From NCBI GenBank assembly GCA_911810475.1, contig OU461276.1, positions 3,473,501-3,537,500 of the forward strand: DNA of 64,000 nt. Direction: 5' to 3'. Shown here piece after piece: positions 11,609-62,369 of this stretch. The notes beneath the pieces are model-generated. The model was not told the origin of the DNA. It did no database searches and saw only the letters and a list, made by a program, of their open reading frames with translations. Numbering within the stretch: position 1 is the first letter of the stretch; each line of letters begins with the position of its first letter. Source of the DNA: Candidatus Celerinatantimonas neptuna. Lineage in GTDB: Bacteria; Pseudomonadota; Gammaproteobacteria; Enterobacterales; Celerinatantimonadaceae. The translations under genes and the position numbers were made by a program.

Positions 11609-11622
11609 TAAATCTTAACTCT

Positions 11623-11657
11623 GGATAAGAACACTAACCATTCTGTGGTTCTTATCC
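11623..11657. terminator. Hairpin after lolE
   Basis: A perfect 10-bp inverted repeat GGATAAGAAC / GTTCTTATCC with a 15-base loop starts 15 bases after the lolE stop. It is a stable stem but no T-run follows, so it may be a terminator or a transcript-stabilising 3' end. Confidence 0.5.
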
Positions 11658-11728
11658 AAAACAGGCGCTTTCAGGTTTCCGATACTTAAACCTAAGCTTT
11701 TTCGCCGGAAAACCTTTTTTATTTTAAT

Positions 11729-11750
11729 TTTGAGGTTAATTAACCTCAAA
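11729..11750. promoter_or_regulatory. Perfect 22-bp palindrome without a loop
   Basis: TTTGAGGTTAA is followed directly by its exact reverse complement TTAACCTCAAA. It lies in the gap between the 3' ends of lolE (plus) and the DUF2062 gene (minus), where an operator would be unexpected. There is no T-run in the right place for a terminator. Role unknown; it may be a protein-binding site or remnant of a mobile end. Confidence 0.4.
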
Positions 11751-57640: not shown

Positions 57641-58624
57641 TTAATGAACAGATTCTATTTTTTCTAACCATGCAGCTTTTTGTGGGTTCTTACGGAAATC
57701 ATTCCACATTGGAGCCAATTTTGCCTTAAAGGCAGCTTTGTTTACTGTTATGAAATGGGCTCCAAGTTTAATTGCTTCAGCTTTTGATTTCTTTACCTGC
57801 GCAACCCATAACCTTCTTTCATATTGTTCCGAATGTTCCACTGCAGTTTTAAGGATTTTTTGCTCTTTGGGAGTCAACTTATTCCAGCTATTTGTAGAAA
57901 TCACCAGATAGTCAGGAATGGATGTATGTTGGTCGGCAGAAAAGTAAGGTGTTATTTCTACGTGACGGGTCTGAACATAGGATGGGATGTTGTTTTCGGC
58001 AGCATCGACAACACCTTGTTGTAGTGCTGTATATACCTCACCAAAAGGAATAGGAGCTGGCGAGCCTCCGAGTAATTGGATCATTTTAATGGTTGTCGGA
58101 GTCGTAATAACTCTGACTCGTAGCCCTTTGAGATCTGCTGGTGTCCGAATTGGTTTTTTTGCATAAAAACTACGGCTACCACCAATATAAGCTCCGATAG
58201 GGTAAAGACCCTTTTTCATGGCATGCTTGGCCAACTCTTGCCCGACAGGTCCATATAAGACCTTATGGTATTGTTCGCTGCTGGAAAACAAATAAGGTAG
58301 GCTGAATATTGAGAAGACTGAATCAAATGATTCGAGTTCAGATGCCATTGCTTTGGTCATATCCAGTGCGCCTTGCTGAAGCATTTCCAGACTTTCGCGA
58401 GGTCCTCCCATTTGTCCACTTGGGTAAATACGGATTTGTAGATCGCTATGTGATTGCTCTGCTACTTCTTTAGCCATATGACGAAATGCAATTGCTACTA
58501 CATGGTTATTTTCTAAGTTATGAGCTAGTTTTAAAACTACTTTTGCATTAGCCTGATGGCTAAAGGCTGCTAGAGAGCCGCTAAGCAGGAGTGCTGTAAT
58601 ACATGGAAGTATTTTAGCTTTCAT
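57641..58624 (-). CDS. TRAP transporter solute-binding protein, DctP family
   Basis: A 327-residue periplasmic binding protein. The signal peptide (1-27, cleavage after ANA) precedes KVVLKLAHNLENNHVVAIAF. Internal blocks IRIYPSGQMGGPRESLEMLQQGALDM, LFSSSEQYHKVL and GLRVRVITTPTTIKMIQLLGG (with the carboxylate-binding arginine) and GVVDAAENNIPSY are classic DctP. The ligand is probably a carboxylate. The membrane partners DctQ and DctM are not adjacent, so it is an orphan that must pair with permeases elsewhere. Palindromes lie just upstream. Confidence 0.9.
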   Translation of the reverse strand: MKAKILPCITALLLSGSLAAFSHQANAKVVLKLAHNLENNHVVAIAFRHMAKEVAEQSHSDLQIRIYPSGQMGGPRESLEMLQQGALDMTKAMASELESFDSVFSIFSLPYLFSSSEQYHKVLYGPVGQELAKHAMKKGLYPIGAYIGGSRSFYAKKPIRTPADLKGLRVRVITTPTTIKMIQLLGGSPAPIPFGEVYTALQQGVVDAAENNIPSYVQTRHVEITPYFSADQHTSIPDYLVISTNSWNKLTPKEQKILKTAVEHSEQYERRLWVAQVKKSKAEAIKLGAHFITVNKAAFKAKLAPMWNDFRKNPQKAAWLEKIESVH

Positions 58625-58689: not shown

Positions 58690-58800
58690 TACTAAGAAAT
58701 AAGATTAAAAACGTGATATCACTAAAAATAAAACATAGTTTTTATTATAATTGTAAAAATGAGAGATAGCGCATTTTCAGCGCAATATGATATGTAAATA

Positions 58801-58937
58801 ACCCCACCTCGGGATAAGAAAGCTTTTTCTGATAGGGAGTAAAGTCGATTTTGGCGTTAAATCCCACATCAGAAAACAAGACTGACCCATCATGAATCAA
58901 TCGTTATTCATTGTAACTTCTTATCTCGGGTTGAGGT
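58801..58937. mobile_element. 137-bp MITE-like element
   Basis: ACCCCACCTCGGGATAAGAA (58801-58820) is inverted at 58918-58937, where the complement reads ACCTCAACCCGAGATAAGAA (16 of 20 match). The six bases TAAATA stand directly outside both ends (58795-58800 and 58938-58943), like a target-site duplication. Inside are two further hairpins: TTTTCTGAT (58826-58834) with ATCAGAAAA, and ATGAAT with ATTCAT. No open frame is present. It sits between the ppsA terminator and the dctP-type promoter. A non-autonomous transposon relic is the simplest reading; a structured RNA is the alternative. Confidence 0.55.
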
Positions 58938-58945
58938 TAAATATT

Positions 58946-58978
58946 AAAAAAGGAAAGGCAACATTGAGTTACCTTTCC
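58946..58978 (-). terminator. Terminator of ppsA
   Basis: On the minus strand a 7-bp stem GGAAAGG / CCTTTCC, extended by three further pairs after one mismatch, is followed by six T. It lies 26 bases beyond the ppsA stop codon. Confidence 0.85.
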
Positions 58979-59003
58979 CGTATATTTTCTTAGTCAGATG
59001 TGA

Positions 59004-61373
59004 TTATCGGGTCACTTTTTCTAATTTTATCCAGGTGTCAATGACTGTGTCTGGGTTTAGAGATACGGAGCTGATTCCCTGTTCCATTAACCATTTTGCC
59101 AGATCATCATGATCTGATGGGCCCTGACCACAAATACCAATATATTTACCTGCTTTCGTTGCAGCTTCAATTGCCATTTTCATCATGGCTTTTACGGCAT
59201 CATTGCGCTCGTCGAATAGGTGAGCTATATCACCTGAATCGCGATCTAATCCGAGGGTTAATTGAGTCATATCGTTGGAACCAATAGAAAAACCATCGAA
59301 GTAACTTAGAAATTCATTCGCTAAAATTGCATTCGAGGGCAATTCGCACATCATAATCACTTTGAGTCCTTGTTCTGCGCGACGAAGTCCATATTTTTCA
59401 AGCAGATCAATCACACAAGCTGCTTCATCCGTTGTGCGTACAAAAGGAATCATAATTTCAACATTCTTTAATCCCATTGTATTGCGAACACGTTTGATGG
59501 CTTCACATTCAAGTTTAAAACAATCTTCAAATGACTCAGAAACATAGCGAGAAGCTCCACGGAATCCCAACATTGGATTTTCCTCATGGGGTTCGTAGAC
59601 ATCACCACCAATCAAATTACTATATTCATTTGATTTAAAGTCAGACATCCTGACAATCACGCGTTTTGGCCAAAAAGCAGCCGCGATAGTCGCGATCCCT
59701 TCGGTCAGTTTGCTGATGTAAAAATCGACAGGATCTTTATATCCGCGAATACGTTGTTGTATTTCATCCTGAAGTTTTTGCTCTTGTCGGTTAAAATTCA
59801 AAAGCGCTTTAGGGTGAATACCGATCATTTTATTGATGATAAATTCAAGACGTGCGAGTCCTACACCTTCGTTAGGAAGCTGCGCAAAGCTAAAAGCACG
59901 ATCAGGATTTCCGACATTCATCATCACTTTGATTGGTAGTTTGGGTAGGGCAGTGATTTCTGAACGATGGATTTCATAATCTAACTGGCCTTGATAAACA
60001 ATACCCGTTTCACCTTCTGAGCATGAAACTGTGACCAGTTCCCCCTCTTGTAATGTTGAGGTGGCTTCACCACATCCAACGATAGCCGGTATGCCAAGTT
60101 CTCGGGCAATAATTGCAGCATGACATGTCCGTCCGCCTCGGTTTGTGACAATTGACGAGGCTTTTTTCATAACTGGTTCCCAGTCAGGATCTGTCATATC
60201 GGTTACCAGCACATCGCCATCTTGTACCAGTGACATCTGGCTTAAATCTTTGACCAGTCTTACCGGCCCACTACCAATTCTCTGACCGATTGCTCGACCT
60301 TCGATTAACACGTTGCTTTTTTCATAGAGCTGAAAGCGTTCAATTTCATTTTTATCGCTCTGGGAGCAAACGGTTTCAGGTCTGGCCTGGACAATATAGA
60401 TTTTTCCATCGATACCATCTTTAGCCCATTCGATATCCATTGAACGTTGATAGTGTTTCTCAATGATCATTGCCTGCTTAGCTAATTCGATGATTTCATC
60501 TTCGCTGAGCGAGAATTGTTCTCTTTCTTTAGAATCTGTGTCGATAACCTGGACTTGCTTGCCAATCTGCTGGTCATTGGTGTAAACCATTTTGATAAGT
60601 TTTGAGCCGAATGTTTTTTTGACAATAGGCATCACACCAGATTCGAGAGATGGTTTATGAATGTAAAATTCGTCAGGGTTTACTGCCCCCTGAACAACCA
60701 TCTCCCCAAGACCCCAGGCCGATGTTATGAAAATCACCTGATCAAAACCTGATTCTGTATCTAAGGTGAACATGACGCCTGAGGATGCTTTGTCTGAGCG
60801 GACCATTCGCTGGACGCCCGCTGAAAGTGCAATTCCCCGGTGATCAAAACCCTGGTGTACCCGGTAGGATATTGCGCGATCATTAAATAATGATGCATAA
60901 ACGTATTTGGTGGCTTCGAGAACGGCATTAATTCCTTTAACATTTAAAAATGTCTCTTGCTGGCCGGCAAAAGATGCATCTGGCAGATCTTCCGCTGTTG
61001 CTGAAGAGCGAACTGCAACCGATAATTCGGAATTTCCATCAATAAGAATTTGATAGTCTCGGCGGATGGCTGTTTCAAGATCTTCAGGGAATGGAGCATC
61101 AATGATCCATTGACGAATAGCCGCTCCGGTTTCTTGTAATACATTGACATCAGTGATGTCGAGTGAGTCGAGTCGTTGGTGGATCCGCTCATCCAGACCA
61201 TCAAAGTCCAGAAATTGGTTAAATGCATAGGCAGTGGTTGCAAAACCATTGGGTACTGATACCCCGGCAGAGGTGAGCTTTGAGACCATCTCTCCAAGAG
61301 ATGCATTTTTTCCACCTACTTTATCAACGTCGTCCATTGATAATTGATTGAACCAGAGGATATGTTCTTGCAT
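59004..61373 (-). CDS. ppsA: Phosphoenolpyruvate synthase
   Basis: Converts pyruvate and ATP to PEP, AMP and phosphate for gluconeogenesis. The 789-residue protein, from ATG at 61373 ([20 protein letters not shown]) behind GGAG, starts with the ATP-grasp domain ([37 protein letters not shown]). The phosphohistidine is His418 in [18 protein letters not shown]. The PEP-binding domain follows, ending with [19 protein letters not shown] and [10 protein letters not shown]. Length matches E. coli (792). Divergent from ppsR. Confidence 0.96.
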
Positions 61374-61415
61374 TTTTAAAATCTCCATGACATCTCATGT
61401 TACTTGTAGGGTGAT

Positions 61416-61428
61416 GGGAAAGTTTCCC
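61416..61428. promoter_or_regulatory. Palindrome in the ppsA-ppsR divergent region
   Basis: GGGAAA-G-TTTCCC, a perfect 13-bp interrupted palindrome 43 bases before the ppsA ATG and 108 before ppsR. E. coli ppsA is controlled by Cra, whose site is TGAAACGTTTCA-like; this resembles that only loosely. Candidate operator. Confidence 0.35.
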
Positions 61429-61535
61429 GGGTTAAAAATTTTTGAATTTATAGTGAGTTAACCTAAACACTTTCTTATATTATTGTTATTGTCTATTACA
61501 TTCCATGTAAAAATACTTATTTTGAGCAACTGAGT

Positions 61536-62369
61536 ATGCAAATTGAGAAAAAAAAACGTAATGTATTTTATGTCTCTGATGGGACAGCGATAACGTGTGA
61601 AACAATAGGACGTACAGTCGTCAATCAGTTTTCTATTATTGCCGATGAAAAAAGGGTTCCATTTGTTGAAAATTCGGAAAAATTAGATGAGTTGGTAAGA
61701 TGGCTTCAGAAATCTTATGCGCGCTCTGGTTGTAAACCATTGGTCTTTTTTTCAATTGTGATTCCTGATATTCGAGAAGCACTGCTCAAAGCCCCGGGTT
61801 TTTTTTACGATGTTTTGGCAGGATTAGTTAATTCTGTTGGGCAAGATTTAAATATGGAAGCTCAGCCAAAGTTACATCGCTCACGCAGTGTCTTTAAAGA
61901 TTCTGATCGATATTTTGATCGTATTTCAGCCATTGAATATACGTTAGCTCATGATGATGGCATTTCACTTAAAAATTTGGATCAGGCGGATCTTATTCTT
62001 TTGGGGGTATCAAGAAGCGGGAAAACTCCAACAGGGCTTTATATGGCAATGCAATTTGGGTTACGTGTTGTGAATTATCCTTTTATTGCAGAAGATCTGA
62101 ATGCACTTAGATTATTGCCGGAATTTGAGATTCATCGTTATAAATTATTTGGATTAACGATTGATGCGCAGCGCCTGACCGAAGTGAGAGAAAATCGTCT
62201 TGCAGGGAGTCAATATGCCAGCAAGCAGCAGTGTGCTCATGAACTTGCTTGTGTAGAAACCTTATTCCGCCAGGAAGCGATTCCGTATATCAATACCAGC
62301 CAACTATCGGTTGAGGAGATATCAACCCGAATTTTAGAACAAACCGGATTTAACCGGAAGTTATGCTAG
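61536..62369 (+). CDS. ppsR: PEP synthase regulatory kinase/phosphorylase PpsR
   Basis: Bifunctional ADP-dependent kinase and Pi-dependent pyrophosphorylase that switches PpsA off and on by threonine phosphorylation. The 277-residue protein equals the E. coli length. It shows [23 protein letters not shown], the P-loop [19 protein letters not shown] (residues 157-175), and [18 protein letters not shown]. The gene is divergent from its target ppsA. Confidence 0.95.

Follow-up and report, generated by a model that had tools for sequence, protein, structure and literature searches.

The window, a 64,000-nucleotide stretch of the Candidatus Celerinatantimonas neptuna genome, carries a 137-bp element (58801–58937, plus strand) in the gap between two minus-strand genes, downstream of the stop codon of ppsA and upstream of the start codon of a DctP-family gene. 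Pfam assigns PPDK_N, PEP-utilizers and PEP-utilizers_C domains to ppsA (59004–61388), and the second gene (57641–58624) encodes a TRAP-type solute-binding protein. The left terminal inverted repeat, ACCCCACCTCGGGATAAGAA (58801–58820, plus strand), matches the right one (reverse complement ACCTCAACCCGAGATAAGAA; 58918–58937, minus strand) at 16 of 20 positions, and each has 2 mismatches relative to the genome-wide end consensus. TAAATA immediately flanks the body on the left (58795–58800) and right (58938–58943), and is read as a target-site duplication in keeping with the enrichment of 6-bp duplications across the copy set. Just outside the element, GGGAAAGGTAACTCAATGTTGCCTTTCCTTTTTT on the minus strand (58945–58979) is a probable intrinsic terminator of ppsA, judged by reading the sequence. 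The terminal repeats, the flanking TAAATA, the absence of any open reading frame (ORF) of at least 80 aa and the inner hairpins were all confirmed as initially annotated. On each strand the block is far more stably folded than expected by chance (z = -4.9 and -4.8), and none of 200 dinucleotide shuffles folded as well.

Six relatives from the genus and family yielded only partial matches of ~30% to ppsA, none of them full-length. Together with a neighbouring kinase/pyrophosphorylase gene (59004–62369 for the pair), ppsA may have been gained or lost as a unit, the search having covered ppsA only.

A dispersed copy family and its resident IS982 elements

The initial annotation proposed a MITE from the sequence, and the genome bears this out with numerous copies that have conserved ends, variable flanks and target duplications, together with a resident insertion sequence (IS) of like ends. 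When the block was searched by BLAST against the genome it comes from (a single contig of 4,132,137 bases, 4.13 Mb), 82 aligned pieces were returned in at least ~40 places at 74–100% identity, a copy number that sets the block above chance; 40 of 93 candidates were scored, so the true copy number is higher. The 20-bp end consensus, ACCTCAACTCGGGATAAGAA, has 90 genome matches at ≤3 mismatches, 45 on each strand, compared with 0 for the reversed control pattern. Copies are dispersed over unrelated loci rather than forming a single-copy block at a locus fixed across genera, and searches of the congener and 58 other relatives gave short, chance-level matches only. A plasmid and phage search with the window MITE gave no match. 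All 40 examined copies lie outside ORFs of ≥90 aa. In the table of these 40 copies, with genes called as longest ORFs rather than from annotation, neighbouring genes are convergent in 13 cases and divergent in 2 (binomial P = 0.007), and copies therefore shun regions with two facing promoters. Divergence among copies reaches ~20% in short forms and ~27% in long forms (see below), so most insertions are not recent.

Exact 6-bp duplications, as predicted, are present in 12 of the 24 copies with both ends recognizable, compared with 3.35 expected from pairing left flanks with right flanks of other copies; none of 20,000 permutations reached 12. Duplications of 5, 7 and 8 bp occur in 0, 1 and 0 of these copies, respectively, and some copies lack a clean duplication. 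Target sites are mostly TANNTA (TAAATA, TATTTA and TAGTTA). The search of the same six genus and family relatives found no ppsA ortholog and thus no counterpart of the window site. Another copy lies in the rsmB-trkA gap, which is 308 bp long in this genome; the congener has 66 bp there, and three more distant genomes read directly have 68, 74 and 2 bp. These short gaps support absence of the copy in the relatives, with no base-exact empty site seen for this or any other copy. Six other loci were left out of this gap comparison.

The same genome contains four full-length IS982-family elements of ~1 kb each (NF033520 above cut-off), with 99% identity among them, alongside older, decayed IS982 copies. 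One IS982 end, ACCTGAACTCGGGATAAGAA, matches the MITE consensus at 19 of 20 positions, and the other, ACCTGAGATCGGTTTAAGCC, is much less alike. The four IS copies are flanked by duplications of TATTTA, TAAATA, TAATTA and, in one case, the 7-bp TATGTTA. No similarity between the MITE and the resident IS982 elements was noticed beyond the terminal ~20 bp. Because the interior is unshared and the second IS end is much less similar, simple internal deletion of the present-day IS982 does not account for the MITE. The block is an IS982-type non-autonomous transposon (MITE), very probably moved in trans by the transposase of an IS982-family source elsewhere in the genome. MITE and IS have the same type of end and prefer the same targets, and we infer that the resident IS982 supplies the transposase. 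Under this scheme, the transposase would recognize the ~20-bp MITE ends, excise or copy the MITE, and insert it at AT-rich TANNTA sites with a 6-bp duplication.

Partial copies are also found. At least six in the same genome retain only the right half, including the right end (L042, L046, L050, L051, L052 and L060), and start internally near a common point, (T)TAATC(C/T)CACATC, TTAATCCCACATC. These right-half copies may reflect use of a cryptic inner end or the spread of a half element. The palindrome at 11729–11750, for which kinship with the block had been hinted, gained little from the family model, which scored only E = 0.7 over 11612–11736. That interval includes the palindrome and the GGATAAGAA hairpin, and its left end is 3 mismatches from the consensus; it may at best be a decayed MITE copy, and possibly a chance match.

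Long and short forms and their relatives in other genomes

Copies fall into a long form of ~194 bp (13 copies) and a short form of 126–137 bp (10 copies), whose consensus sequences are identical save for 57 bp absent from the short form. In the long form, TTAAATCC stands at both borders of this 57-bp stretch, and one TTAAATCC is retained in the short form; in the window element it marks the junction at 58857–58864 (plus strand). The missing 57 bp carries the conserved core hairpin of the 194-bp sisters, and, as expected of a core-deleted copy, the covariance model of the core (R2, described below) gives no hit anywhere in the window up to E = 10. The earlier MITE reading holds, but it overlooked that the window copy is itself a deletion derivative of a 194-bp element. 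Judged from the sequence, the simplest account is deletion between the two TTAAATCC direct repeats, by which the 57 bp would have been lost. Perfect target duplications flank several short copies, including the window copy. Either the core is dispensable for insertion, then, or each deletion came later than the insertion. A tree in which the two forms are intermixed does not favour either alternative.

Related elements extend well beyond this genome. Exact matches to the 20-bp end turn up in 20 stretches from other species, chiefly Vibrio, Photobacterium, Aliivibrio, Litorilituus and other marine Gammaproteobacteria. Several of these relatives are complete elements of 193–196 bp flanked by TANNTA (such as TAAGTA on both sides or TAAATA on both sides), and like ends with TANNTA flanks are found in Vibrio, Litorilituus and an uncultured Alteromonadaceae genome. 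An end-to-end alignment of fifteen such elements shows the hairpin maintained through two-sided changes: 93 cells are doubly changed, compared with 31 in shuffles and 13–31 when the pairing is shifted one to three columns out of register. Two incidental RNA matches were recorded among these sequences and near core-bearing elements: a near-threshold match to TwoAYGGAY RNA (40.2 bits, cut-off 43) at L096:4069-4233 in an Alteromonadaceae genome, and a c-di-GMP-I riboswitch (77.4 bits) at L155:2232-2316 near a core-bearing element.

A covarying core hairpin with unrelated ends

A model of full-length elements (R1) also found elements from other Gammaproteobacteria that share only the middle. This shared core is a hairpin of ~82 nt, with ~50 nt from AAGGC to AACGC. 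It runs through the first half of the outer stem, C-AAGGC, the first half of the inner stem, the tip AATAGC..GCTATT, the second half of the inner stem, AACGC and the second half of the outer stem; both stems are free in sequence. In alignment A3 (30 sequences from ~28 genera), 239 cells are doubly changed, compared with 84 in shuffles. Because its rows were found by a model, the A3 count favours structure, and it was hence repeated on a held-out set of 36 hits of a second model (R2) from 27 genomes outside the set used to build R2. There, 385 cells are doubly changed, compared with 116 in shuffles, and the covariation score is 0.907, compared with 0.211 in shuffles and ≤0.226 with partners slid; the held-out alignment was fitted to the R2 structure and the count leans that way, by far less than the observed excess. 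All 36 held-out hits keep one particular G-C pair at the conserved strands.

R2 matches 119 of 398 Pseudomonadota genomes at E ≤ 1e-4 (6–150 candidates scored per genome); examples in other genomes are L155–L241. With more candidates scored, copies per genome reach at least 150 (G756), followed by 133, 128, 113 and 102, and the genome studied here has 25. Relative to tandem genes, the core lies on the same strand in 9 cases and on the opposite strand in 17, a bias that is not significant. A Pseudomonas-type core hairpin matches four plasmids, without an annotated feature beneath; plasmid and phage searches with three other queries returned nothing.

At least four kinds of end can be told apart in the sequence on either side of the core. 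IS982-type ends (TAACCTCAACTCGGGATAAG and variants) delimit elements that are mostly 187–209 bp and up to 233 bp long. IS5-like ends (GGAAGCTCTGAACAAGTC, GGGAACCTCTGAATAATTC and GGGCACCTCTATTAATTA) occur on elements of ~160–168 bp, TATACC-type ends (TATACCCGTGGCGTTTGAGATTTAGG, TATACCTCTTGCGTTCAAGAATACCCC and others) on elements of ~160–166 bp, and CTAGT-type ends (CTAGTGGGCCATGCGCAAAGTTC, CTAGTACATCAACCAC and others) on elements of ~160–168 bp. Bare core hairpins of ~85–100 bp are also found, some of them in inverted pairs ~105 bp apart. These inverted bare pairs (L191, L193, L196, L198, L202, L205 and L213) often lie beside CCCTTCGGG-like sequence, an organization resembling that of REPINs.

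A transposase partner was identified for the IS982 and IS5 end types only. Elements of genome G450 end in GGGCACCTCTATTAATTA, and the same genome encodes an IS5-family transposase (NF033581) within a 1,254-bp element with ends GGGCACCTCTATTTAG (L243:1320-2573), flanked by ATAA/ATAA. This IS5-family IS is probably paired with the G450 MITEs that end in GGGCACCTC. IS982 and IS5 are thus each paired with core-bearing MITEs, and two different transposase families are involved.

The interior of a MITE is ordinarily regarded as the remnant of one parent IS. The core breaks this pattern, in that a strongly covarying hairpin, with conserved strands at fixed spacing, recurs with at least four kinds of end across the Pseudomonadota. 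It could tentatively be viewed as a distinct and widespread nucleic-acid module that has repeatedly been joined to IS982, IS5 and other ends, presumably serving recognition by a host factor or in transposition, or some benefit to element or host, although we would put the chances of this somewhat below even. The chief competing explanation for the element is that it derives by internal deletion from a lost relative of IS982 and that its interior has no conserved role. Such an origin is the usual explanation of MITEs and would fit the older, decayed IS982 copies in this genome, but we consider it unlikely: the long-form interior recurs as a 193–196-bp element across genera with compensating changes, and the core is common to elements with unrelated ends, which is unexpected of a chance leftover. 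If the core is functional, many unrelated short transposons would have this part in common, and its motif would be sharp enough to serve as bait for the protein or process that reads it. In practical terms, the covariance model is a tool able to find core-bearing elements, and the window block by itself is ordinary once recognized as an IS982-type MITE.

The core was also compared with known structures. It matches no family in Rfam 15, where the only overlapping hits, two plant microRNA models, score far under their cut-offs. Integron attC sites were considered, as GTTAGGC occurs in some Vibrio copies, and rejected because this box is not retained in the other genomes. Identity with YPAL/RU-2 was set aside on a by-eye reading of the printed RU-2 sequence, which has no AAGGC/AACGC core (PMC2759123). 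Searches of open-access papers, which did not extend to ISfinder or subscription journals, gave no description or name of the core.

Structured RNA, RAYT-mobilized palindromes and known MITEs

Two further explanations address the hairpins of the window element directly. One is a structured RNA (an attenuator, riboswitch or sRNA) of ppsA or of the TRAP binding protein gene, to which good folding on both strands and the position between two genes would be suited. It is highly improbable given ~40 copies at unrelated loci with target duplications, the lack of any Rfam match to the window element and the lack of anything above chance in the congener or the 58 other relatives; dispersion and target duplications refute it as the sole explanation, and a secondary effect of the hairpins on transcripts at the window site is possible. 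The other, a REP/BIME- or REPIN-type palindrome that a RAYT (Y1) transposase mobilizes in single-stranded form, would account for a palindromic, intergenic and high-copy sequence and for the inverted core pairs of other genomes, but is scarcely credible for an element with 6-bp duplications and long terminal inverted repeats shared with a DDE-family IS, with no constant protein family beside the core (none among 741 ORFs) and no GTAG/CGTC tag noticed on an informal look. The REPs and REPINs of RAYT transposases are likewise high-copy palindromes, some in inverted pairs like some core occurrences, but they are 20–40 bp long, carry GTAG/CGTC tags and have no long terminal repeats (PMC3116915, PMC3733652), unlike the window element with its IS982 ends and target duplications.

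As an IS982-type MITE, the window element belongs to a known kind, because IS982-derived MITEs have been described in Cardinium: MITECca01 and MITECca02 are MITEs of the IS982-family element ISCca4 in Cardinium cOegib (PMC9769881). Like these, the family described here is non-coding, ~140–240 bp long, bounded by IS982-family ends, present in tens to hundreds of copies and mostly intergenic, and an intact IS of the parental type resides in the same genome (PMC9769881). Cardinium is an unrelated host, however, and MITECca01 keeps a piece of its parent beside one end (PMC9769881), whereas here nothing of the resident IS is found beyond the end and the full-length form has a conserved hairpin core.

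Enterobacterial ERIC and YPAL/RU-2 sequences are also intergenic, palindromic, MITE-like and hairpin-forming, but they duplicate TA rather than 6 bp (PMC2759123). For the IS5-type class of core-bearing elements, a parallel is MITEPsy1 of Pseudomonas syringae, a short MITE with IS5-like ends that has been seen experimentally to transpose (PMC3189936). It differs from the window element in its transposase family and its 4-bp target duplication (PMC3189936), and its CTAG/YTAA targets and GGAAGGTCTGAAAAAGCC ends resemble those of the IS5-type core-bearing class, a likeness that lies in ends and targets (PMC3189936).
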